A program made the translations under genes and the position numbers. The notes under the pieces are model-generated. The model saw nothing but the letters and a program-made list of their open reading frames with translations, did no database searches and was not told the DNA's origin. From Streptomyces sp. HUAS MG91 (GTDB lineage Bacteria > Actinomycetota > Actinomycetes > Streptomycetales > Streptomycetaceae), in NCBI RefSeq assembly GCF_040529335.1, contig NZ_CP159534.1:5828001-5892000 (forward strand): a stretch of DNA of 64,000 nucleotides, in the 5' to 3' direction. Numbering within the stretch: the stretch's first letter is position 1; the number at the start of each line of letters is the position of its first letter. Shown piece after piece: positions 7,033 to 54,482 of the stretch.

Positions 7033-7096
7033 CAGAGGTGAGACTACGGTTCACCACTGACAACGCCCACCGAGTTTCGGACTGGATCCCGACGTC

Positions 7097-8866
7097 TCAC
7101 AGGCGGTGCACGGTGTGCAGGGTCCGGGCGTAGATCCCGGTGCCGTCGAGCAGCGAGGCGCCGCCCAGGTCCGCCATGGTGGGTCCGTCGCCCGTCTTGC
7201 GGCTCGACAGGAAGCGCCGCTTGCCCGCCGCGTCCACGCCGAGGTGGATGCCCACGTGGTCGACCGTGGCCAGGGCCTCGGTGTCATCGCCCGAGTCGGC
7301 GTTGAACAGCACCAGATCGCCCGGCTGGAGCTGCGCCGCGGCCGGCGGGCCGGAGCCGTCGGTGCGGTCGACGCGGACGCCGGGCGCGTACTCGGCCATC
7401 GCCCGTGACGTGCGGGGGAGCCGGGTGCCCGAGGTGTCCGCGCCCGCCGCCATCGGTACGCCGAGGTGGTGGCCGTACACCATCCTCGTGTAGCCCGAGC
7501 AGTCCAGGTTGCCCACCTGCTTGCTGGAGGGCCCCGTGTACGCGCCGTCGGGGAACGTCCAGCCGATGCCCATGTACTCGTGGAAGTCGGCGCCCTCGTA
7601 GCGGTAACCGTGCGGGTCCAGGTAGCCGTAGCCGGACTCGCCCAGGACCTGCCGGCCCGCCGTCGGCCCGGCCCCGCCCGTGACCGCGGGCGCGCCCCCG
7701 AGGAACATCGCCGCGTACGCCAGCGCGTCGGGGGCCGTGGAACCGGCCCAGGCGCGGACCGTACGCTCCAGGTCGGCGGTCCACGTCCCGTCGAACGGCT
7801 CGTCCAGGACCCGCACCCAGGTGTCGTGCGTGACGCTCGGAGGCGTCCGCCAGGCGGCGGCGGTCACCTGGAAGCGGCTGACGGACAGCGTCACCGGCAG
7901 GTTGGCGCAGCCGTCGTTGGCCAGCGCCCGCAGGCCCACCCGGCCCGCGCCGAACGTCGCGTCGGTGACGTCGGCCGCCCACGTCGACGGCTCGGCGGCC
8001 GACGTGCGCCACGCCTTGGCCCTGATGCGGGTGCCCTCCCGGAGCACCCGGATCGTCCAGTCCGTCCCGGCGGGAACGCCGCTGCCCAGCGTGAGCGCGG
8101 CCGTCAACTGTGTGACGACGTCGGCGACTTCCTTCTCCACGCGCAGCTCCACCGCGCCCGAGGTCAGGAACGAGAGGCGGGCCCGGTAGTTGTTGTGCGT
8201 GTCCTGGTAGCCGAAGGACACCGCGTACGAACAGGCCTGGCCGGTGGGCACCTTGTCGAAGTGGGCGACGGCCCGCACGTCGACGTCGGTGACGGCGTCG
8301 TCGCGCAGACTGGCGTGCCGGCTGGCGTAGTCGGTGCTGAGCCGGATGAGGCCCGCGCCCGGGACGACCGAGTAGTCGTCGGCGCTGTCGGCGGGTCCCA
8401 GCGTCGACCAGCTGCCGCCGCCGGGCGAGGTGCCCCAGTACGCCCGGTCCGCCTCGGGCAGCGACGTGTCGGGCAGCGTCCGCTGGAACGTGTCGGCGAA
8501 GGGCTTCTTGTCCTCGGTGAAGGTCCGCTCGGGGCCGGGCAGGACCACGGTCCGTGCGCCGTGCGTCAGGAGCGCGACCCGCTTGCCGCCCGAGGTGACC
8601 TCGGTGCGCGCGGGAACCCCGTCGTGGACGGTGACCGTGAGTGGGTCGCCGAGGGTCAGCCGCGAGAAGTAGGAGGCGTCGAGCGCGGGCAGCGTCACCG
8701 ACGAGCGGGGGCCCGAGAGGCTTCCGGCGGCGAGGGGCTCGGCCGCCGGCTCCCCGCCCGTCGCGGCCCGCGCCGCGGTGCCGCCGAATCCGGCGGCCGG
8801 CGCGACGACGGACACCCCGAGTGCGGCGAGCAGGCCGCGCCGGGAGGTGTGAGGAGCACGAGTCAT
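7097..8866 (-). CDS. Tat-exported NlpC/P60-like hydrolase with LamG-like domain
   Basis: 589-residue secreted protein. The N-terminus carries a twin-arginine type signal (TSRRGLLAALGVSVVAPAAGF). The middle (about 180-340) has a concanavalin/LamG-like beta-sandwich pattern (GLIRLSTDYASRHASLRDD, then NNYRARLSFLTSGAVELRV). The C-terminal ~140 residues are NlpC/P60: catalytic Cys456 in GNLDCSGYTR, His537 in VDHVGIHLG, and the usual LQPGDLVLF. Expected activity is cleavage of cell-wall stem peptides or related amide bonds. It is the last gene of a three-gene operon, 6 bases after the lipoprotein gene and downstream of the large DNRLRE protein. This suggests a shared cell-surface job next to the RHS toxin. 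Confidence 0.85.
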   Translation of the reverse strand: MTRAPHTSRRGLLAALGVSVVAPAAGFGGTAARAATGGEPAAEPLAAGSLSGPRSSVTLPALDASYFSRLTLGDPLTVTVHDGVPARTEVTSGGKRVALLTHGARTVVLPGPERTFTEDKKPFADTFQRTLPDTSLPEADRAYWGTSPGGGSWSTLGPADSADDYSVVPGAGLIRLSTDYASRHASLRDDAVTDVDVRAVAHFDKVPTGQACSYAVSFGYQDTHNNYRARLSFLTSGAVELRVEKEVADVVTQLTAALTLGSGVPAGTDWTIRVLREGTRIRAKAWRTSAAEPSTWAADVTDATFGAGRVGLRALANDGCANLPVTLSVSRFQVTAAAWRTPPSVTHDTWVRVLDEPFDGTWTADLERTVRAWAGSTAPDALAYAAMFLGGAPAVTGGAGPTAGRQVLGESGYGYLDPHGYRYEGADFHEYMGIGWTFPDGAYTGPSSKQVGNLDCSGYTRMVYGHHLGVPMAAGADTSGTRLPRTSRAMAEYAPGVRVDRTDGSGPPAAAQLQPGDLVLFNADSGDDTEALATVDHVGIHLGVDAAGKRRFLSSRKTGDGPTMADLGGASLLDGTGIYARTLHTVHRL

Positions 8867-8872
8867 GTGCGG

Positions 8873-9676
8873 TCAGCCCATCTTGCCCAGCTGACGCCGG
8901 ACCAGGTCGGAGGGGTGGGCGAAGTCGGCGCCGGTCGTCACCGCGGCGAGGTTGACGGCGGGGAAGTAGGCGAGCGTCGAACCCTTGCGGGCGACGACGA
9001 CCTTCAGCGGGGACGTGGTGCCGCCGGAGTCCACGGACAGGGTCAGGCCCAGCGCCTCGTCGGCGCCCTCCGGCGCGAGCGCCTTCTTCACCTTCACCGT
9101 GTGCACCGTCTCGCCGTCCAGGCCGTAGGTGTACCCGTGCGCACACCGGTCCGCCGCCTCGCCGAGATCCGCCATGGCCTGTTCGGCGCCCTTGCCGTCG
9201 TAGGCCGCGAGCGTCAGGAACACGGAGGTGATGTCCGGGGCGACGGCGATGTCCTTCTCCGCCTTCTTCCCGTCCTGTTCCTCCGGTGCCTTCTCGTCGC
9301 CGATCCACATGCGACGCGTCGTCGCCGCGGGCTTGCCCACCACCGACGCGGCCTGCACGTACGCGAGCGGCGCGCACGACGCGTCGTCGACGTCCACGGC
9401 GCCCTGGCGCGCGAAGTCCTTCGGGGAGACCTGGTCGGTGACCGTGCCGTCCTCGACGTCCTTCTGGGCGAGCGCGGCGGCGTCGAGCTGCGGGCTGCTC
9501 AGCGTCCGCGCGTCCGTGCCGCCGCCCAGGACGTCCGGGGCGCCGGACGCGGCCGTGCCGGTGTCCTGGGTGGCGGCCGGGTCCGCGTCCTGCTCCGTGG
9601 AGCCGGACCCGCAGCCGGTCAGCAGCAGTCCGAGGCCCAGCGCGAGAGCCGGGATGTGACGGTGCAGGCGTGCCAT
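8873..9676 (-). CDS. Lipoprotein of unknown function
   Basis: 267 residues with a lipoprotein signal: basic start, hydrophobic core and lipobox LLTGC (Cys about 22). It then has a Ser/Thr/Asp-rich linker and a globular domain with two cysteines (SCAPLAYV and DRCAHGY) that could form a disulfide, as in mycobacterial sensor-domain-like lipoproteins. I do not recognise a specific family with confidence. It sits between the DNRLRE protein gene (24-base gap) and the NlpC/P60 gene (6-base gap), so co-expression and a role at the outer membrane face are likely. Confidence 0.8.
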   Translation of the reverse strand: MARLHRHIPALALGLGLLLTGCGSGSTEQDADPAATQDTGTAASGAPDVLGGGTDARTLSSPQLDAAALAQKDVEDGTVTDQVSPKDFARQGAVDVDDASCAPLAYVQAASVVGKPAATTRRMWIGDEKAPEEQDGKKAEKDIAVAPDITSVFLTLAAYDGKGAEQAMADLGEAADRCAHGYTYGLDGETVHTVKVKKALAPEGADEALGLTLSVDSGGTTSPLKVVVARKGSTLAYFPAVNLAAVTTGADFAHPSDLVRRQLGKMG

Positions 9677-9700
9677 GGTGCTTCCTTCGTCTGGGGGCGC

Positions 9701-12700
9701 TCAGCCGAAGCTGAGCTTGTTCGTCTTCCACTGGCTGTCGGCGCTGATGACGGTCGTCCCGGCGCCGAGCGCGGTCTTGCCGCCGGCGTAGAACTTGATG
9801 CTGCCGTCGGAGGCCATCGCCCACAGGTCGGGGATCTTGTCCTTGTTGACGTCCGGGGTGCCGTGCAGGAACGCCGTCGGGTACGCGCCGGCGGTCCAGC
9901 CCGACGCGTACGTGGAGTCGGTGCCGCCGAGCGAGTCCGCGGACGTGGACAGCGAGGCCAGGGTGGCACCCCCGGTGCCGGCGGGCGCGCCGAGCCGCAG
10001 CCGCAGGTTGTCCGACTCCGAGCGGAACAGCAGGTCGGGCGTGCCGTCGACGTTGACGTCGCCGACCGTGACCAGATCGCGGTCGAGCCAGGCGGACGTG
10101 GCGATCTGCGCGGCCGTGGAGAACGTCGCGCCGGTGTACCCGGTGAACGCCCACAGGCCGCCGCCGGTCGTCGTGGCGAACAGGTCCATCCGCCCGTCGA
10201 GGTCGTAGTCGCCGAGGATCATCTGGTCGAACGTGGCCGGGGACGGGGCGTTCGACGGCAGCCGGACGTCCAGGCGCCGGTCGATGTCGGTGCCGCCGTA
10301 GCCGTCGCCCCGGTACACGTACAGCTTGCCGTCGGGCATCCGGGCCAGCAGGTCGCTGACGCCGTCGCCCGGCATCAGGTCGCCGCTGTGGGCGATCAGC
10401 GCGGGCCTGCCGTCGGCGCCCTTCCAGTAGCCGGCGGCGAGGGGTTCCTCGCTGTCGTCGGGGGAGTTGATGAGCAGCTCCCCGTCCTTCTCGGCGGCCG
10501 ACAGGCTGCGGTGCAGGTCCCCGGTCTCGCTGGAGGGGTACATGCGCAGATTGCCGTCGCTGTCGATGGCGTACACGTCGGGAATGGTGTCGCCCGTGAC
10601 GTCACCGGGCTTGTCGGCGGCGTCGCGCGGGGTCACGTAGAAGACGTAGGCGGTGGGCCCCGACGGATTGCCGGCGGCGTCCTTGGCGCACACGTACAGG
10701 ACGTTGGGCCCCGCCAGTTTCGGGGTGAGGGTCACGGTGCCGGTCTTGCCGGCCGCCACCGTGAGCGTGCTGGAGCAGGACGAGGAGTTGAGCGCGTACC
10801 CGAAGGCGGTGACGTCGGTGTCGCCGTCCGGGGCGAAGGTGAAGGTGCCGGACTCGCCGAACCTCTTCGCCGACCACACGTCGCCGTTCTCGCCCTCCTC
10901 CGGATAGTCGGTGGAGGTGACGACGGGGGAGTTTGGGAAGCTGGCGTCGTAGACGAACCGGCAGGTCGGGTCGTAGCCGGACTTGTTGAGCGGCGCCCAG
11001 TCGGAGACCGCGTCCGTCTCGTCCTCGGCCTGCACCTGCCAGGAGTACGTCCAGCCGTTGGTCAGCGACGAGGCCGGGTACTTCACCGAGGCGTTGCCAC
11101 CGGTGGTGGTGGCGCCGGACTTCTTCACGGTCGTGGTGTCCTGGTAACCGGTGTGCCACAGCTCGAAGTTGAGCTTGTCCAGGTCCTTGTCGGCGTCCGA
11201 GCTGTGCGCCGACAGCACGAGGTCGCGCCTGCCGACGCGCGGGTACGGCTCGGTGCGGCTGCACGTCGGGCCGGGGGACATGTCCAGCGAGGAGGGCACG
11301 GCGGGCTTGCGGTAGTAGTTCACCGAGAGGCGCGGCGCCGAGGACCCCTCCGCCTTGAACTTCTTCCAGGCGTACGTGGAGGACTCGTCGTAGGCCTGGA
11401 AGCCGATGGTCGTCGAACCCCAGCCGCCGTCGGCCGCGTCCTGGGCGAGCCCCTTGGCGTCGAAGCTCACGTAGGCGTCGGGGCACGACGAGTTGTAGCC
11501 GTGCGCGATGTCGTGGGTGTCGAGCTTGGTCTTCCAGTCGGGCTGGTTGTTCCAGGTGGTCTTCGAGGAGATCGAGCCGGTCTGCCACAGCTCGACGACG
11601 CGCCCCGAGCACGACCACGAGTACGTCTCCAGGACGCGCACGCTCGCCGAGGTCACCTTGGCGCCCTTGATGTTCTCCAGGTCGAGCCGGAAGAAGGAGC
11701 GCGAGGTGCCCCAGGTGTCGGCCTCGTAGCCGACGCGGGCCTCGGTGGTGCCGGTGTTGTAGTTGGCACCGTCGTAGAAGCTGGAGGACGGGTACTTCTT
11801 GTACGCGGTCGTCCAGTTGGTGGTGTGCCCGTAGAACGACGGGTCGATGAAGAGCGGGTACTCGGTCGACTCGGCCTGCGCCAGCGCGCGGGCGGGCGTG
11901 ACGGTGAGGATGGTGTCCCCGGTGCCGGGCGCGCTGAGGTCGGCGTCCGCGGTGGCGGCGTGCGTGCCGCCGTCGGGTCCCGCGAGGCCGCGCAGGGTCA
12001 GGACCTGGTCGTCGGTGAGCCGCTCGGTACCGGTGCGCCAGGCGGCCGACCGGACACCGCTGCCGCCGTCACCGCCCGTGAAGGCGGCGGGGTCGGCGTC
12101 GGGCGCCGTGGCCGGATCGGTGGGCGCGTCCGTGTCGTCGGCGTCCGAGGGCGCGTCCGGGGTCTCGTCGGCGCCGTCGTGCGGGGGCGCGCTCTGGTCG
12201 GTGGCGTGCGGGGCCGGCTCCTCCGACGGCTCCGCGGGCTGCGGGTCGGCGCCCTCGGTGACGGCGGGCTCGCCGGCCGAGTCCCACATGTACGGGGTGG
12301 GGCTGACGGCGATCTCCGCGCCCGAGGCGTCCTGCGCGGTGACCGACTTCGTGCCCGGGTCGAGGTGGAAGGTCAGGTCCGGCGAGGACAGCCCGTACGA
12401 CAGCGTGCGCAGCGCGTCCGAGGCAGCGGCCTCGGCGGTGTGCACGATCAGCACGTGGTTGAAGCCGCTGTCACGCGCGGTCAGCAGAAGGTCCACGTCC
12501 GGCAGCACGTCCCGGTACAGGGCGCGCTCGCCGTCGATCACCGGGGCGGGCAGCGTGCCCGGCCAGGACAGGGTCACCTCGTGGCCGGCGCTGGTGAGCG
12601 TGACGAGATCGGTGAACTCCGCCGCATCGCCGCTTGCTTGGCGGGCCGACGCGGTACCGGTGCCGTTCGCGGACACGGTGAGGACGGCGGACCGCACGGC

Positions 12701-13168
12701 GCCGTGGGACGTCGCCGGGCCGGTGCGCGCGGAAGCGCGTCGCGCGCTGTGCGTCGCCCTGCCGCCGCCCGCGGAGAACACCACCGGGTCGGCGGACGCC
12801 TTCGGGGCCCAGCCCCGCGCGGTGCGGTGCAGTTCGGTGTCGAGCGGCTTCCACTCGCCGTCGACCTTCGCCCGGAACGGGGCCGCGGACGCCTCCAGCT
12901 GGAAACTGCCGTCGGGCTTCGCGTACGTCGTCGTGGACTCGGTGCGCAGCTCGGTGACCTCGACGCGGCGGCCGGTGGCCCGCGCCCTGTCCTGTGCGGC
13001 CTGTTCGCCGACGGTGGCCCGGGCCGTGCCGCGGGTGTCCCGCGCGGGCGCCGCGTCGTCCACCAGCAGGGGGACCAGGACCCCGGCCCCCAGCGCGGCC
13101 GCCACGCAGGCGGCGATCGCCCCTGAGGCGCGACGGCCCGGCAGACGCCGGATGAGACGACGATCCAC
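9701..13168 (-). CDS. Giant secreted DNRLRE-domain protein with FG-GAP/VCBS repeats
   Basis: 1155 residues. GTG start at 13168 with AAGGGGG upstream. N-terminal Arg-rich signal sequence, and an acidic low-complexity stretch around 290-350. A DNRLRE (CBM96-like) beta-sandwich follows at about 440-630 (FFRLDLENIKGAKVTSASV, TTWNNQP, GWGSTTIGFQAYDES). Next come Ig-like segments with paired cysteines, and FG-GAP/VCBS-type repeats from about 850 to the end (GDVTGDTIPDVYAIDSDG, GDYDLDGRMDLFA, GDVNVDGTPDLLF). Such proteins are often found beside RHS proteins in Streptomyces, as here, where it diverges from the RHS gene at 13659. It is probably a wall-exposed adhesin or scaffold. First gene of a three-gene operon. 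Confidence 0.85.
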   Translation of the reverse strand: MDRRLIRRLPGRRASGAIAACVAAALGAGVLVPLLVDDAAPARDTRGTARATVGEQAAQDRARATGRRVEVTELRTESTTTYAKPDGSFQLEASAAPFRAKVDGEWKPLDTELHRTARGWAPKASADPVVFSAGGGRATHSARRASARTGPATSHGAVRSAVLTVSANGTGTASARQASGDAAEFTDLVTLTSAGHEVTLSWPGTLPAPVIDGERALYRDVLPDVDLLLTARDSGFNHVLIVHTAEAAASDALRTLSYGLSSPDLTFHLDPGTKSVTAQDASGAEIAVSPTPYMWDSAGEPAVTEGADPQPAEPSEEPAPHATDQSAPPHDGADETPDAPSDADDTDAPTDPATAPDADPAAFTGGDGGSGVRSAAWRTGTERLTDDQVLTLRGLAGPDGGTHAATADADLSAPGTGDTILTVTPARALAQAESTEYPLFIDPSFYGHTTNWTTAYKKYPSSSFYDGANYNTGTTEARVGYEADTWGTSRSFFRLDLENIKGAKVTSASVRVLETYSWSCSGRVVELWQTGSISSKTTWNNQPDWKTKLDTHDIAHGYNSSCPDAYVSFDAKGLAQDAADGGWGSTTIGFQAYDESSTYAWKKFKAEGSSAPRLSVNYYRKPAVPSSLDMSPGPTCSRTEPYPRVGRRDLVLSAHSSDADKDLDKLNFELWHTGYQDTTTVKKSGATTTGGNASVKYPASSLTNGWTYSWQVQAEDETDAVSDWAPLNKSGYDPTCRFVYDASFPNSPVVTSTDYPEEGENGDVWSAKRFGESGTFTFAPDGDTDVTAFGYALNSSSCSSTLTVAAGKTGTVTLTPKLAGPNVLYVCAKDAAGNPSGPTAYVFYVTPRDAADKPGDVTGDTIPDVYAIDSDGNLRMYPSSETGDLHRSLSAAEKDGELLINSPDDSEEPLAAGYWKGADGRPALIAHSGDLMPGDGVSDLLARMPDGKLYVYRGDGYGGTDIDRRLDVRLPSNAPSPATFDQMILGDYDLDGRMDLFATTTGGGLWAFTGYTGATFSTAAQIATSAWLDRDLVTVGDVNVDGTPDLLFRSESDNLRLRLGAPAGTGGATLASLSTSADSLGGTDSTYASGWTAGAYPTAFLHGTPDVNKDKIPDLWAMASDGSIKFYAGGKTALGAGTTVISADSQWKTNKLSFG

Positions 13169-13250
13169 GGCAGTGAACCCCCTTGTGGAAACCGCGGTTG
13201 GGCAGAGCCGCTAGAGCATGAACGACACAGTCCCGTTGCGCCAGCTCCAC

Positions 13251-13285
13251 CCGTCACACACAGCTGTGACGGAATTGTGATCACA
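13251..13285. promoter_or_regulatory. Two palindromes in the divergent DNRLRE/RHS intergenic region
   Basis: CCGTCACA (13251-13258) and TGTGACGG (13265-13272) form a perfect 8-bp inverted repeat with a 6-base loop. TGTGATCACA (13276-13285) is a perfect palindrome just beside it. They lie about 80-115 bases before the DNRLRE gene start. They are placed to act as operators for the leftward operon, but the regulator is unknown. Confidence 0.4.
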
Positions 13286-13538
13286 GGATGGAACCCGCCG
13301 ACCGCCCTGGCAGTCAGGGTGTCGGCTGTCTGGGGACTTAATCTCCGATGTGCCATGAAATCCGACATCCCGTCACTTGGTTCGATCGGAGATGATCAAG
13401 AAGGTCGGGTACGTCCAACTCGCCGCGCTCACGGCGGATTCGGGGCGACTGGTCGCGCTTGCCGCTAAGTGAAGCGACTCGCTCCGCTTGTGCCGCTTGG
13501 CGGCGTGACGCACCTCACGATTGGCCCTGACGGCCCGT

Positions 13539-13567
13539 TTGACCTGCGCATGGCTGGTCCGCATGAT
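13539..13567 (+). promoter_or_regulatory. Promoter of the RHS toxin gene
   Basis: TTGACC (13539-13544) and CATGAT (13562-13567) are separated by 17 bases, the spacing of the principal streptomycete sigma factor. Predicted transcription start is near 13574. This rules out a start codon at 13521 and supports the GTG at 13659. Confidence 0.55.
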
Positions 13568-13658
13568 TCCGCCGATCGGTTTCATCGCGACGGGTGTACG
13601 GATCCCTGACGTTCGGTCAGCCTCCGTCGCTCCTGCCTTGATTGGGGGCTTCGGCGAC

Positions 13659-16600
13659 GTGTGGGGTGCGCTCTCTTGGTCCGGCCGCGGGCGACTGGCC
13701 CGTACCGGTGTCCGGCGACGCCGGCGGGCCGCGCTGCGGCTGACGGTGATCGGTGCGCTGTTCATGGCGCTCGTCGTCGGGACTTTCGCCGGCAGCGCCG
13801 CGGCCGCCCCGCCGCCCGCCGGCGATCGCAGCGGCGTCGACCTCGTGGACCTGCCCGACCGTGACCCGGCGCTGGCCGCCGAGGACAACGCCCTCGACGA
13901 ACTGACCACCTCCGAGGCGGCACCGCCCAAGGAGTACGACCCGGCGGCGACCGCCGTGCCCGTCGACACCACGCCCGCGCAGGAGGAGGTGACCGACCTC
14001 GCCCCCGGCGCCAGCGTCGCCGTCGGCGACCTGCCCATCGAGGTCGGCGCCCCCGACGACGCCACCGCCGAGGAGGCCGCCTCCCTCGAAGGCACCTGGC
14101 AGGCGTCCGTGGTCCCGCAGACCGAGCTGGACGCCGTCTCCATGGAGGGCCTCGCCTTCAAGGTCACCCCGCCCGCGGACGCGACCGGCGAGGCCACCGT
14201 CTCCCTGGACTACACGGCCTTCGCCGAGCTGTACGGCGCCAACTGGGCCGACCGCCTCAACCTCGTGCAGTACCCGAGCTGCGTCCTGACCACCCCGGAC
14301 GTCGAGTCGTGCACCGAGCCCGTCGCGCTCGACACCGACCAGGAGGTCACGGCGAAGGACGACGACGTCGACGACGACGGCAAGCTCGACGGCCGCCGTC
14401 AGCTGACCGCCACCGTCGACGTCGCCGCGCTCGCGGGCACCGCCTCCGGCACGACCGCCACCACCGCGCGCGCGGACGGCAAGGGCACCGACCTCGCCGG
14501 GGACGCCGTCTACCGCGGCCCGCCCGGAGCGAAGGCCGCCACGCAGGCGGCCGGCTCCGGCTCCGGCGCGAGCGTCCTCGTCGCCGGCTCCCACGGCAGC
14601 GGTTCGGGCGGCGACTTCTCCGCGACCCCGCTGGTCAGCGCGGGCAGCTGGTCGGCGGGCGGCTCGTCCGGCGCGTTCACCTACTCGTACGCCCTGAACG
14701 CGCCCAGCGTCCCCGGCGGCCCCTCGCCGAGCGTGGCGTTCTCGTACAACTCGCAGGTCGTGGACGGCCGCACGTCCGCCACCAACAACCAGCCGTCCTG
14801 GATCGGCGACGGCTGGGAGTACAACCCCGGCTCCATCACCCGCACCTACAAGGCGTGCACCGACGACCGGGACAAGGGCAACAACGCGAACCACAAGACC
14901 GGCGACCTGTGCTGGGGCAGCTACAACGCGGTGATGACGCTCGGCGGCACCACCACCGAGCTGGTCAGGAACGACGCCGACGGAAGCTGGGTCACCGCCA
15001 ACGGCGACGGCTCCAAGGTCGACCTGATCAAGGACACCTCGCTCGCCAACGGCGACGACGACGGCGAGTACTGGCGCATCACCACCCGCGACGGCATGCG
15101 CTACTACTTCGGCCGCAACAAGACCGCCGTCTGGAAGGACGGCGACCCGCTCACCAACTCGGTCCTGACCGTGCCCGTCTCCGGCAACCAGTCGGGCGAG
15201 CCCTGCTACGACGCGTCCTTCGCCAAGTCCTTCTGCGACCAGGCCTGGCGCTGGAACCTGGACTTCGTTCTGGACCCGCAGGGCAACATGATGTCGCTGT
15301 GGTGGAGCAAGGAGACCAACCACTACGCCAAGGACAACAAGTTCAAGGCGTCCGTCTCCTACGACCGCGGCGGCTACCTCAACCGCATCGACTACGGCCA
15401 GCGCGCCTCCACCGTCTACACCGCGAAGCCCATCTCGCAGGTCGTCTTCGACGTCGACGAGCGCTGCTTCAAGGAGGGTGAGGTCAGCTGTTCCGACGCC
15501 AACTTCACCTCGGGCAACTTCGCGCAGAACCGCATCTGGTACGACACCCCGTCGGACCTCTACTGCGCGGGCGGCACCAAGGAGTGCTGGGTGCCCGTGC
15601 CCACCTTCTGGTCCCGCAAGCGCCTCGCCAAGGTCACCACGCTGACCCAGCGCACGGAGGGCTCCACCGCGCTGACCCCGGTGGACCGCTGGACCCTGGA
15701 CCAGTCGATGCCGGCCCACCGCACCGACGAGGGCACCGCCCTGTGGCTGGAGTCGATCACCCGCACCGGCTACACCGCCGACGGCGAACCGGCCGAGGAG
15801 TCCCTGAACCCGGTCGAGTTCCTGCCCAACACGCAGTCCATGCCCAACCGCGTCAAGCGCGGCGCGAAGGACCCCAACCCCGTCTTCGACCGGCTGCGCA
15901 TCCAGCGCGTCGTCAACGAGTACGGCGGCGAGACCGTCGTCGACTACAAGAAGCCCGCCGAGGACAGCGCCTGCGCGACCGGCACCGGCTTCCCCAAGCC
16001 CGAGGCGAACACGGGGCTCTGCTTCCCCGCGTACTGGCACCCCGACCCCGACAAGGCCGACGAGACGATCGACTGGTTCCACAAGTACGTCGTCGACGGC
16101 GTACGGGAACTGCCCAACGTCGCCGGGAGCCCGGCCGAGACGACGGCGTACGAGTACGTGGGCGGCGGCGCCTGGGGGCTCAACCAGGCCGAGTTCTCCA
16201 AGAAGAAGACCCGCACCTACGACCAGTGGCGCGGCTTCGGCCTGGTCCGCACGATCACCGGCGCGGACTCCACGACCCCGTACACCTCCACCACCCGCGG
16301 CATGTCCGAGACCCGCTACTTCCGCGGCATGGACGGCGACCCGCTGCCCGGCGGCGGCAAGCGCGAGGTCGTCGTCACGGACCACGACGGCGCCAAGATC
16401 GCCACCGACGACCTCGCCTACCAGGGGCGGGTCGCGGAGACCCTCACGTACACCAAGTACAACGGCGAGTTGCTGACCCGCTCGGTCGACTACCCGACCA
16501 CGCCCGAGGCCCTCGCCACCCGCGCCCGCGACGACGGCGTCCCGCCGCTGAAGGCGTACCGCGTCAACACCGCGAAGTCGAAGACCTGGACCCGGTCCTC

Positions 16601-19600
16601 GGGCAGCGGCGACGACACCGACGAAGAGCGCACGACCACGACCACCAGCACCTACGACCCCACCTACGGCCTGCCCGTCACGGTGGAGACGACCGCCGAC
16701 ACCGAGACCGGCGACACCACGTGCACCGTCAACTCCTACGTGCACAACACCGAGGCGAACCTGATCGGGCTGCCCAAGCAGTCCCTCACCACCGCCGGCA
16801 CCTGCGCGCACGCCCCGTCGGCCACCGCCGCCGAGTGGATATCGGGCTCCCGCGTCGCCTACGACAACCAGGCCTACGGCACCGCGCCGACCACCGGCCT
16901 CGCCACCGGCACCTGGGACATCAGCGGTGACGGCGGCGCCTGGACCGACAACGGCACCGTCACCTACGACGGCTACGGCCGCCCCACCAGCACCACGGAC
17001 GCGCTGAAGCACAAGGAGACCACCGCCTACGGGCCGAGCACCGGCCAGGTCTTCAAGGTCACCAGCACCAACGCGCTCAGCCAGTCCAGCACCTCGACCA
17101 TCGACCCGGCGCGCGGCACCACGCTCAGCGACACCGACCCCAACGGCAACACGACGGCCTACGCCTACGACGCGTACGGCCGCACCACCTACGCCTGGGC
17201 CCCGGGCCAGACCCCGGGCGACACCGACGAGGCCTCGGCCCACTTCACGTACACGATCGTGCAGGGCGAGCCGGTCCACGTGACCAGCGAGAGCCTCAAG
17301 GAGGACGGCTCCTACGACACGGGCGTCACCTTCTACGACGGACTCGGCCGCGAACGCCAGCGCCAGGAACCGGCCGTCGGCGGCGGCCGCCTCGTCACCG
17401 ACACGCTGTACAGCGCGGACGGCACGGTCAGCCAGACGAACAACGCGTACTTCGCCAACGGCGCCCCGGACGACGAGATGTTCGACGTCGAGTCCGACGG
17501 CCAGGTGCAGAACGCCACGCTCTACGCCTACGACGGCCTCGGCCGCGTCCTGACGGAGACCCCGTACCTCGCGGGCGTCGCCAAGCCGACCAAGGCCACC
17601 AGCTACCAGTACGGCTACGACTACTCCGTCGTCGACGACCCGGCCGGCGGCACCAGGCAGCGCTCGTACACCGACGCGCTCGGCCGCACCACCCGCGTCG
17701 ACACGTACACGGACCTCAACCGGACGGTCTTCCGGTCCACGCGCTACAAGTACGACGCCCGCGGCGACCGGGTGAAGGCCGTCGACAGCGAAGGCAACGC
17801 CTGGTCGTGGACGTACGACGCGCGCGGCCGCGAGCTGACCGCGACCGACCCGGACACCGGCACCTCGCACACCACGTACGACGTCCTGGACCGCGCGGAG
17901 ACCACCGAGAACGCCCGCGGCATCAAGGTCTGGACGAAGTACGACGACCTCTCGCGCCCGCTCGAACAGCGCCTGAACAACGACTCCGGCACGCTGCTCC
18001 AGGCCAACACCTACGACACGGTCACCGGCGGCATCGGCCAGCCCGCCACCTCCACCCGCTACACCGACGGCCTGGGCTACACCCAGTCGATCACCGGCTA
18101 CACGGAGGACTACCAGGCGACGGGACAGCAGCTGAAGCTGCCGCCGTCGGTCGCCACCCAGTACGGCCTGAAGGACACGTACACCTACGCCTACGACTTC
18201 TCGAAGCAGGGCCAGCTGCGCTCCACGACGCTGCCCGCGGCGGGCGCGTTCGACTCCGAGAAGGTCGTCACCCGCTACAACGAGGACGGGCTGCCGGTCT
18301 CCACCTCCGGCCTCGACTGGTACACCGCCGACACGGAGTACAGCCCGTGGGGCGAGGTGCTGCGCTCGGTCGCGGGCGAGCAGCCCAGCCGGGTGTGGAC
18401 GACGAACCTCTACGACAGCACCACGGGTGAACTGAACCGTCAGATCGTCGACCGCGAGTCCACCACCGACACCACCGCCGTCACCGGGCACCGGGTCAAC
18501 TCCCGAACCTACGCCTACGACACGGCGGGCAACATCACGCAGACCACGGACGTGTCGGGCACCGCGACCGACCGCCAGTGCTTCGTCTACGACGGGCTCG
18601 GCCAGCTCACCGAGGCGTGGACCTCGCCCAACGAGGCGTGCAAGGCGGCCGGGAAGACGTCCGCGGCCCCGTCCTACGACGACGGCACGTCCAACGTGAC
18701 GGCGGCGAACGACGGCTACTGGCAGTCGTTCAGCTACGACGAGATGGGCAACCGCAGGAAGCTCGTCGAGCACGACGCGGCAGGCGACACCGCCAAGGAC
18801 GCGACGACCGACTACGCCTACGGCAAGGCGGACGGCAGCCAGCCGCACACGCTGACCGGCATGGAGCGCACGTACACCACGGACGCGGGCGCCCACGTCA
18901 AGGAGTCCTCCACGCTCCAGTACGACGAGGACGGCAACACCACGACGCGCACGACGGGCGGCAACGAGCAGGGCCTGACCTGGACCTGGGACGGCCAGGC
19001 CGAGACGGTGTCCGGCTTCGGCGCGAACGGCTCGGGCGAGTTCGTCAACACGGCCTCCAAGCGCTGCCTCGACGTGCAGTCCTCCTCGAACGTGGCCGGC
19101 ACCCCGCTGCAGATCTACTCCTGCAACGGCACCAAGGCCCAGAAGCTGCGCATCGACCCGGACTCCGACAGCGACTCCACCACGGGCGCGCTGAAGGTGC
19201 TCGACCAGTGCGTGATGCCGAAGGACGGCGCGAGCACGGCCGGCACCGCCGTCGTCATCGCGAAGTGCACGGGCGCCGCGAACCAGCGGTGGACCACCAC
19301 GTCCACGGGCACGCTCAAGCACGTCGCCTCCGGCAAGTGCGCGGCGCTGCCCGGCGGTACGACGACACCGGGCACCGACCTCCAGCTCGCGACCTGTGAC
19401 GGTTCCGCGGGCCAGGTGTGGAAGCCGGCCGACGAGATCCGCTACGTCTACGGGCCCACCGGCCAGCGACTGCTCGCGCTCTCCGACAGCGAACACACCC
19501 TGTACCTCGGCGACACGACGGTCTCCACCGACGCCGCCAACGCCCTCGCGTACACCGAGCGGTACTACTCCCAGCCGGGCGCGTCCACCGTGATGCGGCA

Positions 19601-21440
19601 CGCGCAGGGCACGGCGGCGGCCACCTTGTCGGTGCAGGTCGCCGACCAGAACGGCAGCGCGTACGTCAACGTGCAGCTGGCGCAGGGCAACAAGGTCCAG
19701 TTCTCCAAGGCGACCCCGTTCGGCACGGAGCGCGCCGAGAGCGCGAGCTGGCTCTCGCACCAGGGCTACGTGGGCGGCGGCGAGGACTCGTCCACGGGCC
19801 TGATCCACCTCGGGGCCCGCGAGTACGACCCGGTCACCGGACGCTTCCTGTCCGCCGACCCGGTCGTGGACCTGGGCGACCCGGTCCAGCTCAACGGCTA
19901 CGTCTACTCGGAGAACAACCCGGTCACGTACGCGGACCCGTCGGGCCTGTCGTCCGGCACGGACGCCTCCGACTACTACGACGGTCCCTCCGACTCCGCG
20001 GTGTCGGGCGCCCGCTCGACGGCGGCGCGCACGCTCGGCGACGTCATCCTGTCGACCGGCTGGGCGGTCCTGAAGGAGTTCCTCGGCTGGAACGACGTGG
20101 TCGGCTGCTTCTCCCGCGGTGACCTGTGGGCGTGCGGCAGCCTCCTGATGGACGCCATCCCGTGGGGCGCGATCTTCTCCAAGGGCAAGAAGATCTGGAA
20201 CGCCGTCAGGGCGACGATCAGCGCCGTCAGCGCGTGGCGCAAGGCCGTGACCCAGGCCAAGCGGGTCCTCGCGCTCGCGAAGAAGGCCTGGGAGATCGCC
20301 CGCAAGATGGCGGCGGCGGCGAAGGCGGCCGCCAAGCGGGCCGCGCAGCTGAAGAAGAAGGCGCAGGCCGCGAAAGCCGCCGCGACCCGCGCGGCGAAAC
20401 GCCAGACACAGAAGATCGGCAACGCGACACAACGCAAGGCGCGTTCCGAGGCCAGGAAGACGGCGAGCAGCAAGCCGAGCACGACGGCCCGGAAGAAGTC
20501 CGAGGGCGGCGGCAACGAGACGAGCGGCGCCAAGGCCGACGAGGGCGAGGCCGCGTCCTGCCCCGTCAACAGCTTCACGCCCGGCACCCGGGTGCTGATG
20601 GCGGACGGCACCAGCAAGCCGATCAAGGACGTGAAGCTCGGCGACAAGGTCCTCGCGACCGACGCCGAGACCGGCGACACCACGGTCGAGACGGTCACCG
20701 CCGAGATCCTCGGCCAGGGCCTCAAGCACCTGGTGAAGGTCACGGTCGACGTCGACGGCAAGAAGGGCACGAAGACGGCGTCGGTCACGGCGACCGCCGG
20801 TCACCCCTTCTGGGTCGAGGAACTCCACACCTGGCTCGACGCCACCGACCTCGCCCCGGGGGAGTGGCTGCGCACCAGCGCCGGCACGTACGTCCAGATC
20901 ACGGCGGTCAAACGCTGGACGGTCACCTCGGCGACGGTCCACAACCTGACGGTCAGCAATGTCCACACGTACTACGTGCTGGCAGGGGCCGCGCCGGTCC
21001 TGGTCCACAACTGCGGGAAGGGCCCGGGCGGCCAGGACACCGCGGACGCGGGTCACGTCTACGAAGGCGGTCAGTACCAGGATCTCAAGGATCCGACGAC
21101 CGGAAACAACTACCCGGGTACGGAGATCAACCACGTACCGCCCGCGTCCCTGGCCGAGGCGAACCTCGGATACCGTACAGGCCCCGCTGTGCGCATGGAC
21201 TACGTCGACCACCGGGCGGTCTACTCGACAGGTAGTTCCCGAGCGGCGAAGGCGTGGCGCATGTGGCAGCAGGAACTCATCGACGGTGGACGCGTGGATG
21301 AAGCCGTGCAGATGGATATCAACGATATCCGCAACAGATTCGGGTCCAAATATGACGGCGCCATCAGTCAGATGCTGGCAGGGATGGCGAACAACCCCGC
21401 CTATCAAGCCATGAGACGGATTCCGAGTGTGGTCGGCTAG
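13659..21440 (+). CDS. Secreted RHS polymorphic toxin: lectin insert, Hint protease, HNH-like nuclease tip
   Basis: 2593 residues. The GTG at 13659 is chosen because GGGGG lies 10 bases upstream, the promoter is at 13539-13567, and the protein then begins with an Arg-rich signal peptide ending AGSAAAAPPP. Layout: acidic N-terminal region to about 300; a large RHS shell with many YD repeats (YDAYGRT, YDGLGRV, YDARGRE). A ricin-type beta-trefoil is inserted at about 1790-1925 (KRCLDVQSSSN, NQRWTTT). The RHS core is REYDPVTGRFLSADP, followed by a Lys/Ala-rich coiled region. A pretoxin Hint domain runs from C2301 (CPVNSFTPGTR) through GHPFW to VHNC (C2452). The last ~140 residues hold EINHVPP (E2489, H2492) and DYVDH (H2518), resembling HNH/EndoVII-fold toxins. 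The tip has weaker GC3 than the shell. An immunity-like gene follows at once. Confidence 0.9.
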   Translation: MWGALSWSGRGRLARTGVRRRRRAALRLTVIGALFMALVVGTFAGSAAAAPPPAGDRSGVDLVDLPDRDPALAAEDNALDELTTSEAAPPKEYDPAATAVPVDTTPAQEEVTDLAPGASVAVGDLPIEVGAPDDATAEEAASLEGTWQASVVPQTELDAVSMEGLAFKVTPPADATGEATVSLDYTAFAELYGANWADRLNLVQYPSCVLTTPDVESCTEPVALDTDQEVTAKDDDVDDDGKLDGRRQLTATVDVAALAGTASGTTATTARADGKGTDLAGDAVYRGPPGAKAATQAAGSGSGASVLVAGSHGSGSGGDFSATPLVSAGSWSAGGSSGAFTYSYALNAPSVPGGPSPSVAFSYNSQVVDGRTSATNNQPSWIGDGWEYNPGSITRTYKACTDDRDKGNNANHKTGDLCWGSYNAVMTLGGTTTELVRNDADGSWVTANGDGSKVDLIKDTSLANGDDDGEYWRITTRDGMRYYFGRNKTAVWKDGDPLTNSVLTVPVSGNQSGEPCYDASFAKSFCDQAWRWNLDFVLDPQGNMMSLWWSKETNHYAKDNKFKASVSYDRGGYLNRIDYGQRASTVYTAKPISQVVFDVDERCFKEGEVSCSDANFTSGNFAQNRIWYDTPSDLYCAGGTKECWVPVPTFWSRKRLAKVTTLTQRTEGSTALTPVDRWTLDQSMPAHRTDEGTALWLESITRTGYTADGEPAEESLNPVEFLPNTQSMPNRVKRGAKDPNPVFDRLRIQRVVNEYGGETVVDYKKPAEDSACATGTGFPKPEANTGLCFPAYWHPDPDKADETIDWFHKYVVDGVRELPNVAGSPAETTAYEYVGGGAWGLNQAEFSKKKTRTYDQWRGFGLVRTITGADSTTPYTSTTRGMSETRYFRGMDGDPLPGGGKREVVVTDHDGAKIATDDLAYQGRVAETLTYTKYNGELLTRSVDYPTTPEALATRARDDGVPPLKAYRVNTAKSKTWTRSSGSGDDTDEERTTTTTSTYDPTYGLPVTVETTADTETGDTTCTVNSYVHNTEANLIGLPKQSLTTAGTCAHAPSATAAEWISGSRVAYDNQAYGTAPTTGLATGTWDISGDGGAWTDNGTVTYDGYGRPTSTTDALKHKETTAYGPSTGQVFKVTSTNALSQSSTSTIDPARGTTLSDTDPNGNTTAYAYDAYGRTTYAWAPGQTPGDTDEASAHFTYTIVQGEPVHVTSESLKEDGSYDTGVTFYDGLGRERQRQEPAVGGGRLVTDTLYSADGTVSQTNNAYFANGAPDDEMFDVESDGQVQNATLYAYDGLGRVLTETPYLAGVAKPTKATSYQYGYDYSVVDDPAGGTRQRSYTDALGRTTRVDTYTDLNRTVFRSTRYKYDARGDRVKAVDSEGNAWSWTYDARGRELTATDPDTGTSHTTYDVLDRAETTENARGIKVWTKYDDLSRPLEQRLNNDSGTLLQANTYDTVTGGIGQPATSTRYTDGLGYTQSITGYTEDYQATGQQLKLPPSVATQYGLKDTYTYAYDFSKQGQLRSTTLPAAGAFDSEKVVTRYNEDGLPVSTSGLDWYTADTEYSPWGEVLRSVAGEQPSRVWTTNLYDSTTGELNRQIVDRESTTDTTAVTGHRVNSRTYAYDTAGNITQTTDVSGTATDRQCFVYDGLGQLTEAWTSPNEACKAAGKTSAAPSYDDGTSNVTAANDGYWQSFSYDEMGNRRKLVEHDAAGDTAKDATTDYAYGKADGSQPHTLTGMERTYTTDAGAHVKESSTLQYDEDGNTTTRTTGGNEQGLTWTWDGQAETVSGFGANGSGEFVNTASKRCLDVQSSSNVAGTPLQIYSCNGTKAQKLRIDPDSDSDSTTGALKVLDQCVMPKDGASTAGTAVVIAKCTGAANQRWTTTSTGTLKHVASGKCAALPGGTTTPGTDLQLATCDGSAGQVWKPADEIRYVYGPTGQRLLALSDSEHTLYLGDTTVSTDAANALAYTERYYSQPGASTVMRHAQGTAAATLSVQVADQNGSAYVNVQLAQGNKVQFSKATPFGTERAESASWLSHQGYVGGGEDSSTGLIHLGAREYDPVTGRFLSADPVVDLGDPVQLNGYVYSENNPVTYADPSGLSSGTDASDYYDGPSDSAVSGARSTAARTLGDVILSTGWAVLKEFLGWNDVVGCFSRGDLWACGSLLMDAIPWGAIFSKGKKIWNAVRATISAVSAWRKAVTQAKRVLALAKKAWEIARKMAAAAKAAAKRAAQLKKKAQAAKAAATRAAKRQTQKIGNATQRKARSEARKTASSKPSTTARKKSEGGGNETSGAKADEGEAASCPVNSFTPGTRVLMADGTSKPIKDVKLGDKVLATDAETGDTTVETVTAEILGQGLKHLVKVTVDVDGKKGTKTASVTATAGHPFWVEELHTWLDATDLAPGEWLRTSAGTYVQITAVKRWTVTSATVHNLTVSNVHTYYVLAGAAPVLVHNCGKGPGGQDTADAGHVYEGGQYQDLKDPTTGNNYPGTEINHVPPASLAEANLGYRTGPAVRMDYVDHRAVYSTGSSRAAKAWRMWQQELIDGGRVDEAVQMDINDIRNRFGSKYDGAISQMLAGMANNPAYQAMRRIPSVVG

Positions 21441-21467
21441 GTGGCGCAGAATTCTTCAGGAGACAGC

Positions 21468-21923
21468 GTGAACATTTCGGTGGACCCTCCGGACCGGGTC
21501 GGTCCCATCGCTCTCGGGATGTCCGTTGAACAGGCCGATGACGCACTGCGGCGCATTGACGGCCTTCAGGCGGAGGACGGGCCGCGGGAGCCCCTGCACG
21601 GCCAGGCGAACTACGCGAGCGGGCTGAGCATTCACACCCATTTCGGTCCGGGTTCCCTGGTGAACGCGATTGAGGTGTTCCGGCCTCGGGCGGATGTCTC
21701 CGTGCTGCTGCATGGATTCGACATCTTCGGGCTGCCGGCTCAGGAAGTGGTCGAGCGGATCGGCGAGTTCGCGGAACTGGAAGAGGAGGAGCGCGGGTGT
21801 TCGTTCATCGCCCCGGAACTCCTTGTCGCGCTGTGGCGTCCCTTCGTGTCGACCACCGAGGAAGATGAGCAGGGCTACTACTTCCAGTCTGTTCTCGTGG
21901 CTCGGCCCGGATATTACGATTGA
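21468..21923 (+). CDS. Probable immunity protein to the RHS toxin
   Basis: 151 residues, small and acidic, no signal peptide, so cytoplasmic. The GTG at 21468 is chosen because AGGAG (21458-21462) is 5 bases before it. A GTG directly abutting the toxin stop (21441) has no such site. I do not recognise the family. The fold looks alpha/beta, with an acidic EELEEEERG-like segment near residue 105 and a Tyr-rich end. Position right after the toxin tip, small size, acidic charge and relaxed codon bias are the usual marks of polymorphic-toxin immunity genes. Function is therefore inferred from context. Confidence 0.72.
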   Translation: MNISVDPPDRVGPIALGMSVEQADDALRRIDGLQAEDGPREPLHGQANYASGLSIHTHFGPGSLVNAIEVFRPRADVSVLLHGFDIFGLPAQEVVERIGEFAELEEEERGCSFIAPELLVALWRPFVSTTEEDEQGYYFQSVLVARPGYYD

Positions 21924-21956: not shown

Positions 21957-22763
21957 ATGCGTAAACGTGTGGTGTTCGGACTGCTGTCCGGAGTCATGGG
22001 GTTGGGGCTCGTCGGCACCACCGCCATGACGGCCGAAGCCACCACCTACGAGGGCGGCGTCTCGTTCTCGAAGGTGGTGTTCAATGACGGGGACCCGATC
22101 GTCGTCGGCACGACGAACAGGGTGAGGGTCCCGCTGACGTTCACCGTGAAGAGCACATCGGCGCTCGACTCGTGGGAGGTGTTCGCCTACCGCGGCACGC
22201 TCGGCAAGAGCGACTACACGCTGGCCGGCAGTGAGACCGAGTTGAGCTGCTCGAAGTCGACGAGCGGCGGGGTGACGACGCGCGCCTGCAAGTGGATGAT
22301 CGACATCGAGCCGCGCCACATGCCCAGCGGCAACGGCGGCTCGCTCGTCAACAGTGACGCCACCGCGTGGAAGACCGCCGGCACCGGCATCAAGCCGAAC
22401 GGCAGCTGGGACACCGACGGCCTCTCCGGCACCGTGTCCCTCCAGCGGTACTCCCGGCTGACCGCCAACGCCTCGCCCGAACCCGCCGTCAAGGGCAAGA
22501 AGATCACCGTCACCGGTGTCGTCCAGCGCGCCGACTGGTCCGCGCACAAGTACGTGAACTACGGCGGCCGCAAGGTCTACCTGCAGTTCAAGCCCGCCGG
22601 TTCGAACACCTACACCTCGGTGAAGGCCGTCACCGCGAGCAGCACCGGCAAGCTGTCCACCACCGTCACCGCCGACAAGAGCGGCACCTGGCGCTGGAAG
22701 TACTACGGGAACTCCACCACCGGAGCGAGCACCTCCACCGGTGACTCCGTCACGGTTGGCTAG
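21957..22763 (+). CDS. Secreted protein with Ig-like C-terminal domain, unknown function
   Basis: 268 residues. ATG at 21957 follows GAAGGTGG. It has a signal peptide (MRKRVVFGLLSGVMGLGLVG, cleaved near AEAT) and no membrane segment afterwards. The middle contains two cysteines (SCSKS, RACKW) likely to be disulfide-bonded. The C-terminal ~100 residues have the alternating Thr/Val/Gly pattern of a bacterial Ig-like domain (KGKKITVTGVV, GRKVYLQFKPAGS, SGTWRWKYYG). I know no enzyme with this pattern. It starts 33 bases after the immunity gene and may be cotranscribed with the RHS locus. Confidence 0.75.
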   Translation: MRKRVVFGLLSGVMGLGLVGTTAMTAEATTYEGGVSFSKVVFNDGDPIVVGTTNRVRVPLTFTVKSTSALDSWEVFAYRGTLGKSDYTLAGSETELSCSKSTSGGVTTRACKWMIDIEPRHMPSGNGGSLVNSDATAWKTAGTGIKPNGSWDTDGLSGTVSLQRYSRLTANASPEPAVKGKKITVTGVVQRADWSAHKYVNYGGRKVYLQFKPAGSNTYTSVKAVTASSTGKLSTTVTADKSGTWRWKYYGNSTTGASTSTGDSVTVG

Positions 22764-54114: not shown

Positions 54115-54157
54115 TGCTGGTGCTCCAGGGCATGACGGCGAGGGCGAAGGTGTCCTC

Positions 54158-54350
54158 CCCATCTGTCATCGGAACCTGAGAGGTTCGCCCCGGGGGGCTT
54201 GCACCTTGGGTGGGGCCGCCGTACGAGACGGTCGGCCCGCTTTTCAGATGTGCCTCGCCCGCGCGGTTCGGGGCCTGAGAGATTCAAGGGAGGGACTTGC
54301 TCCTTCGGCGCCCAGGACAGCGTGTGCCTGGAACTCTCCCGCGCGGATTC
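54158..54350 (-). promoter_or_regulatory. Tandem glycine riboswitch upstream of gcvT
   Basis: On the minus strand, two aptamers follow each other. Aptamer 1 (about 54350-54270) has GCGGGAGAGTT, GGCGCCGAAGGAGCAA and GAATCTCTCAGGC. Aptamer 2 (about 54252-54160) has ACATCTGAAAAGCGGG, ACCCAAGGTGCAAG and CCTCTCAGGTTCCGATGAC, and is closed by CAGATG. These are the diagnostic glycine-aptamer cores (GGAGCAA, CTCTCAGG). Glycine binding should turn on gcvT-gcvH-glyA-sdaA. It ends about 44 bases before the gcvT ATG. Confidence 0.95.
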
Positions 54351-54482
54351 AAGCGGCCTGTATGCAGTTGGCGCGCACATCATTGCATGTCCGGGGAACG
54401 GGAAAACAGATCGGAGGGCATTACCTACTCTTTACACTTGGTGGGGAGAAGTGGCGTGACCGGAACGGGGAGGACGATCACG

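Follow-up and report, generated by a model that had tools for sequence, protein, structure and literature searches.

We analysed a 64-kb stretch of the 8.6-Mb genome of Streptomyces sp. HUAS MG91 (64,000 nucleotides; hereafter, the window), in which a gene for a large RHS protein with a predicted C-terminal toxin domain lies back to back with a gene for a DNRLRE protein (hereafter, the partner). Gene calls are open frames on window coordinates, and domains were assigned by Pfam and NCBIfam scans. A preliminary description of this DNA had set an RHS toxin with a Hint domain and an adjacent frame divergently to a tight set of three genes. This layout was reproduced frame by frame, coordinates included, and the 2593 residues given for the RHS protein are obtained from the GTG start at 13659.

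7097–8866, minus strand: NlpC/P60 gene (open frame; Pfam NLPC_P60; Tat-type)
8873–9676, minus strand: lipoprotein gene, P0002 (open frame; lipobox LTGC read by eye)
9701–13168, minus strand: partner gene, P0003, with predicted exported leader, DNRLRE/CBM96, FN3-like domains and β-propeller (open frame, domain scan and structure model)
13505–13518, no strand: palindrome GTGACGCACCTCAC in the divergent intergenic region, candidate Crp/FNR-like operator
13659–21440, plus strand: RHS gene, P0004 (frame open from 13521; likely GTG start at 13659, giving 2593 amino acids)
19029–19424, plus strand: ricin-B lectin domain within P0004 (residues 1837–1968; Pfam match over 1838–1967, E 3.8e-21)
20553–21011, plus strand: Hint autoprocessing domain of P0004, to VLVHN at residue 2497 (Pfam PT-HINT)
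21012–21437, plus strand: predicted C-terminal toxin domain of P0004, residues 2498–2639 after VLVHN (EINHxPP...DHRxVYSTG)
21468–21923, plus strand: putative immunity gene, P0005 (frame open from 21441)

The RHS protein runs from a Sec-type signal, read by eye, through an RHS shell, the ricin-B lectin, the RHS core and the Hint domain to the C-terminal toxin; the scans recognize its RHS/YD repeats, RHS core and PT-HINT. The nearest solved relative of this Hint domain is that of UmbC1 (8w20_A in the PDB, E 5.4e-21). In the partner the scans find FG-GAP_3, together with CBM96 (the DNRLRE fold), which scores 25.5 bits, under its cut-off of 26. The NLPC_P60, DNRLRE/FG-GAP, RHS and Hint domains named previously were all recovered. 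The LamG domain ascribed to the NlpC/P60 protein has no Pfam match there, and the ricin-B lectin inside the RHS protein had been overlooked.

Pairing of the DNRLRE and RHS genes across genomes

The partner gene is conserved next to RHS genes. In the best 80 of 209 DNRLRE loci in GTDB species genomes, 78 have a divergent, adjoining RHS gene, and in one of the two exceptions (L192) the contig stops within the DNRLRE gene. For a count that is independent of such a ranking, we searched 199 Streptomyces genomes with fragments of P0003 (199 residues) and P0004 (232 residues), and scored DNRLRE and RHS matches as paired by script when they lay within 8 kb of each other. The RHS set used for this pairing comprised 150 among the matches listed, so that counts of unpaired genes are upper bounds. 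There are 89 strong DNRLRE matches in 63 of the 199 genomes, the source genome included; by script, 76 are divergent to RHS, 7 are in tandem with it and 6 are unpaired. Four of these six (L211, L212, L213 and L215) have a divergent RHS gene on re-reading that was missing from the listed RHS matches, whereas L214 is at a contig end and G017:C868 begins 320 bases from a contig start. RHS genes therefore adjoin 87 of the 89 strong matches (80 divergent and 7 tandem), with the other two at contig ends. Conversely, 54 of the 56 strongest RHS matches have a DNRLRE match within 8 kb. Two frames, L216:3945–10160 (2072 residues) and L219:845–7117 (2091 residues), start with a DNRLRE module after which no RHS part was recognized. 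That adjacency is kept when the orientation changes argues against mere promoter sharing.

The source genome carries a second such pair. A DNRLRE protein gene found with P0003 (G000:C1, about 6783.8–6786.1 kb, minus strand) has a full-length RHS gene, found with P0004, starting 0.4–0.5 kb away on the opposite strand; neither a lipoprotein nor an NlpC match was found at this locus (L055).

Sequence profiles point to a common origin for the N-terminal half of the partner and part of other RHS toxins. Residues 1–745 of the P0003 family align colinearly with the N termini of two RHS proteins, P0018 (hhalign probability 99.4%, E 5e-21) and P0020 (99.3%, E 3e-19), both of which terminate in the toxin type of the window. 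The controls (P0010, a secreted protein described below; the first 700 residues of P0004; and the NlpC protein) gave no alignment to the P0003-family profile. P0004 thus lacks a WapA-style N-terminal DNRLRE module in cis; the module is on P0003. By these alignments, some RHS proteins carry the N-terminal module in cis and others have it encoded in trans. We read the adjacency as functional because the module is fused to RHS in relatives and because the pairing survives a change of orientation.

The two proteins also diverge together. Pairwise identities among partners correlate with those among RHS proteins (rho 0.79 over 76 pairs, 3 of the 79 having been left out for short frames), and the maximum of 500 permutations was 0.11. 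In seven same-genome pairs of loci, the partner and RHS genes have similar identities.

Lectin halves, toxin tips and a shared palindrome

The structure model of P0003 predicts a carbohydrate-binding module (CBM), FN3-like domains and a propeller that matches the umbrella lectin UmbA4. To this we added 17 more divergent partners, hand-picked rather than drawn at random from the 199-genome matches (L209, with no DNRLRE match, yielded none). All 17 have propeller, bulb-lectin, ricin-B or LamG domains at their ends, with B_lectin under the Pfam cut-off in L199, L201 and L202. In two of them, L203 and L199, this region carries the lectin half of UmbA4 (E 2.6e-178 and 2.5e-115, respectively); relative to UmbA4, the L203 protein retains Y551 and W668 and has serine in place of N633. 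We found no trypsin family in P0003 (E<=0.1) or in the 17 other partners (E<=0.001), and no enzyme family above cut-off in any of them. Sialidase N-domain matches in three partners are under cut-off and lie over LamG-type regions. We also considered a hypervariable lectin and rejected it, as variability in the propeller barely exceeds that of the other parts of P0003.

The toxin tips are polymorphic. Eleven RHS proteins, which differ in architecture, match the tip of the window (the 142 residues after VLVHN). For example, it ends P0014 (1578 amino acids, Streptomyces sp. HD), an RHS protein that is WXG100-like and has no Hint match; the start domains of the proteins that bear this tip thus vary. 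Pfam, NCBIfam and the PDB hold no match to it better than E 0.1, and we therefore claim no activity; the name ‘tRNA(Glu)-specific nuclease WapA’ carried by P0020 is a public database label and not a test result. Sixty-two of 76 RHS proteins had the motif at the Hint end and, with the window added, their 63 tips fall into 46 families (BLASTP, 1e-5). Across 20 close loci, tip identity is 0.09 at 13% coverage, compared with 0.63–0.72 for the shell and 0.72 for Hint. In L163 the RHS match continues into the tip, yet this tip does not group with that of the window.

L118, the closest relative of the window, has conserved flanks around a different tip, which is followed by different frames, and in the window the GC content falls from 0.71 in the shell to 0.62 in the tip (21030–21437) and 0.63 in the immunity frame. 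On these sequence features, the tip and immunity region looks like the product of cassette exchange. As the partner persists across tip exchanges, it belongs to the chassis and not to the tip. Further downstream of the immunity gene, a 268-residue protein with a signal-like start (21957–22763, plus strand) is 87% identical in L118 despite the different intervening cassette.

The gene just downstream of the toxin is a putative immunity gene. A 151-residue database copy (P0023) implies a start near 21468. The protein has 84 database matches, that of the window included, and in three genomes homologues occur on contigs that agree in length and strain name with those of toxin homologues. Its AlphaFold2 model is confident (pLDDT 91) and has no PDB fold match at E<=0.001.

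Many of the divergent regions have an inverted repeat in common. We compared those of 79 loci and the window, extending each region by margins of 350 bases (median size, 961 bases), and found an exact GTGA-N6-TCAC in 49 of the 80, the region of the window included. A Markov control predicts 1.8 and equal-size shifted windows contain 0–5; the same half-sites at spacings of 2–5 and 7–12 occur 0–8 times, against 49 at spacing 6. The pattern occurs four times in the 64-kb window against 0.9 expected, which makes a lone site weak evidence. The repeat resembles the Streptomyces Crp consensus, given as GTG(N)6GNCAC in PMC10033298, and is a candidate operator for a Crp/FNR-like regulator.

The lipoprotein and NlpC/P60 neighbours

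The preliminary description had treated all four genes (RHS, DNRLRE, lipoprotein and NlpC/P60) as one system, and had made the recurrence of the last three beside RHS genes in other genomes the test of this link. The DNRLRE–RHS core stands, as described above; the other two genes fared differently. A lipoprotein gene is present in 14 of the 80 DNRLRE loci, all among the first 22 (L118–L139). It follows the DNRLRE gene in five (L118, L119, L130, L132 and L135) and lies on the far side of the RHS gene in nine; in L120 it is on the strand opposite to the RHS gene. None was found at E 1e-4 in 33 control loci, comprising 30 derived from NlpC matches and three from the source genome itself (L055–L057, with RHS genes at two of them). 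In five of the seven closest RHS loci of the 199-genome set, the RHS gene is followed by one or two lipoprotein genes; one or two P0002-family genes are so placed in the G014, G079, G091, G097 and G159 loci. The family itself is common (a match in 145 of 199 genomes at E 1e-3): of the 130 listed lipoprotein matches used, only 12 have any of 31 chosen RHS matches within 15 kb, own genome excluded. P0002 has no Pfam match even at a limit of E 10. The lipoprotein is a recurrent accessory, variable in position, of the one group of loci closest to the window.

The NlpC/P60 gene is present in only one of the 80 DNRLRE loci, L118, where synteny with the window extends as far as the ABC exporter-like frames. 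In the window, the three minus-strand genes are separated by 6 and 24 bp, and the set extends 64 bp past NlpC to frames at 5164–7032 and 3290–5167 that appear ABC exporter-like by eye. Outside the source genome, the 199 genomes contain 23 long NlpC matches (22 near full length and one covering residues 5–486), for which we fetched up to about 9 kb per side, with less for L062, L072 and L076. These stretches contain no DNRLRE or lipoprotein match and none of the genes that flank NlpC in the window. Among the clusters listed, with frames overlapping NlpC set aside, no family is common to more than a few loci. An RHS match lies within 10 kb of one of the 23; in this locus (L069) it spans 3895–7782, and the full-length NlpC homologue (9139–10902) lies 1.4 kb downstream. 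Because of the single occurrence among the DNRLRE loci and these neighbourhood counts, we judge that NlpC/P60 is probably a hitch-hiking neighbour; as a part of the system it was rejected on the same counts. The protein has a Tat motif, SRRGLL, read by eye. Its residues 142–322 match parts of other proteins, and its single match to PDB sequences (E 0.82) is uninformative. Elsewhere in the window, tandem glycine riboswitch aptamers occur at 54153–54351 on the minus strand (Rfam RF00504, 65.9 and 41.1 bits).

A proposed split toxin and its relation to known systems

We propose, with a probability of roughly 0.6, that the locus encodes a split, WapA-like two-component secreted polymorphic toxin with a lectin targeting subunit encoded in trans. 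The RHS protein would be exported by Sec and fold as a YD-repeat cocoon, from which the Hint domain would cut off the C-terminal toxin, with the product of the downstream gene neutralizing that toxin. The divergent gene would supply a separate exported protein. Its N-terminal half (leader, CBM and Ig) corresponds to the module found in cis in other RHS/WapA toxins; its C-terminal half would be an exchangeable lectin, here a predicted β-propeller. Through the N-terminal half, the partner may dock on, or act with, the RHS particle; by analogy with the UmbA lectins of umbrella toxins, the lectin half may bind a glycan on the wall of the target cell. A Crp/FNR-family regulator could switch one or both genes from the common intergenic region. 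With the lectin subunit separate from the toxin, aim and warhead could evolve separately.

Several observations weigh against a two-component targeting system. The second exception among the fetched loci, L173, has a partner gene and no RHS match in 23 kb, and only 105 of the 150 RHS matches used have a DNRLRE match within 8 kb. Among weaker DNRLRE matches (56 of 61 among the matches listed), the script paired 22 and left 34 unpaired; of nine of the latter that we re-read, four are tandem, one is divergent, two are single fused frames and two are unclear. The source genome has a third RHS locus, close to the end of the chromosome, at which another divergent secreted gene, P0010 (L056:6401–8365, minus strand), stands beside the RHS gene (L056:8525–14530, plus strand; the search alignment to this locus contains one TGA). 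The P0010 protein has an Ig stretch that resembles that of P0003 (BLASTP E 3e-5) and ends in a region with weak similarity to NucA/NucB nucleases (E 0.079). We rejected P0010 as a DNRLRE homologue, as BLASTP aligns the Ig stretch only and profile comparison finds nothing.

The lectin, regulatory and co-divergence arguments also meet counter-evidence. The first Foldseek match of the P0003 model is chicken ROS1 (E 1.5e-8), with UmbA4 second (E 2.8e-8). The tie between P0003 and UmbA consists of a 51-member profile and a fold match, FG-GAP propellers form a broad family, and P0003 alone has no match among PDB sequences at E<=0.1. Mean pairwise identity in the propeller is 0.48, close to that of other P0003 parts (0.50, 0.54 and 0.61), and the RHS protein has a ricin-B lectin of its own. 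One-mismatch palindromes are not enriched (28 against 23 expected), and the second DNRLRE/RHS pair of the source genome lacks the palindrome, its best site having two mismatches. The correlated divergence is partly species history, and partner and RHS have an identical nearest neighbour in only 36 of the 76 pairs.

Alternatively, the partner might act on the producer side. The preliminary description had suggested that it could be a scaffold with an anchoring or delivery role and, in this form of the idea, the partner would be a WapA N terminus in trans that uses its CBM and propeller to keep the toxin attached to the wall of the producer until delivery by contact, perhaps with the help of the lipoprotein. 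The cis homologues are indeed the N-terminal part of WapA-type proteins, and the DNRLRE/LysM region of Streptococcus suis WapA is predicted to bind the cell wall (PMC12704120); the CBM fold in the P0003 model and the lipoprotein in 14 loci point the same way. However, the variable halves of the scanned partners are lectin classes known from UmbA, a target-cell binder, Pfam detects no LysM or sortase-type family in P0003, and NlpC is not conserved with the DNRLRE–RHS pair. We consider a wall anchor unlikely: that the DNRLRE protein belongs with the RHS system is supported, and anchoring is a less likely role for it than targeting.

It is more doubtful still that the partner is an independent second effector or adhesin with only regulation in common with the RHS toxin. 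The common palindrome fits such an arrangement, as does the divergent P0010 gene, with its Ig stretch and weak nuclease-like end, at the third RHS locus. Against it stand the RHS proteins that include the N-terminal module in cis, the occurrence of tandem as well as divergent arrangements and the lack of any enzyme family above cut-off in the scanned partners. As for a single conserved four-gene machine in which NlpC/P60 opens the wall for delivery, both the window and L118 have the four genes side by side, and one NlpC locus of 23 has an RHS match nearby. With NlpC in a single DNRLRE locus and, among the clusters listed, no neighbour family common to more than a few of its homologues, this proposal is largely refuted and we regard it as very improbable; the idea of a wall hydrolase as the delivery part is likewise not supported.

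A split toxin with a lectin subunit would bear on how Gram-positive RHS/WapA toxins find and reach cells without a type VI or contact-dependent inhibition apparatus, machinery that Streptomyces lack according to the preliminary description. If it is correct, the targeting subunit would be a concrete, deletable part, and its lectin half would predict the target range.

RHS/WapA toxins and umbrella lectins are each known; searches of the open PMC literature listed no RHS toxin that has its own lectin-bearing partner gene with modules in common with UmbA. Specifically, no separate DNRLRE/lectin gene paired with a Streptomyces RHS gene is described in open-access PMC titles and abstract openings (subscription papers and preprints being outside this scope), and ‘RHS’ is absent from the accessible text of both umbrella-toxin papers. 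The WapA-type RHS toxins of Gram-positive bacteria are alike in their Sec-type signal, RHS/YD shell and swapped C-terminal toxin with an adjacent immunity gene (putative here), as well as in a DNRLRE-bearing N-terminal module homologous to that of P0003. Here, in contrast, the module is a separate divergent gene with an extra lectin half, and the RHS protein holds a Hint domain and an inserted ricin-B lectin.

Two other groups combine an RHS or YD shell with a propeller. In TcB/TcC of the ABC (Tc) toxins and in TcdB/TcaC-type exporters, an RHS cocoon is associated with an integrin-like propeller, following the architecture in PMC3482391; here, the propeller sits on another protein, and P0004 has no SpvB, TcdB or FG-GAP Pfam match at E<=0.1. 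Teneurin-like proteins share the YD shell with toxin and immunity gene (putative here) and the FN and propeller domains. As presented in the available text of PMC13018210, they carry FN domains, an NHL propeller and a YD shell in a single chain, with no partner gene described.

The umbrella (Umb) particles of Streptomyces also comprise a secreted polymorphic toxin and a separately encoded lectin protein. The Hint domain of P0004 is related to that of UmbC1, and in two relatives of the partner UmbA4 modules make up the lectin half. The locus differs in having RHS repeats instead of ALF repeats, which were absent from P0003 and P0004 at E<=0.1 (the source genome has one ALF match, just under cut-off at 24.5 against 25.4 bits), and in the lack of a trypsin family in P0003 and P0004 by Pfam. 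By a narrow balance of judgement, we favour a wider proposal in which Streptomyces RHS toxins are two-component weapons that draw lectins from the UmbA pool. RHS cocoons and ALF-repeat umbrellas, although unrelated as toxin chassis, would then trade aiming modules, the lectin setting the species hit and the Hint-released tip the mode of death. RHS toxins would thereby be tied to umbrella toxins through common lectin modules.

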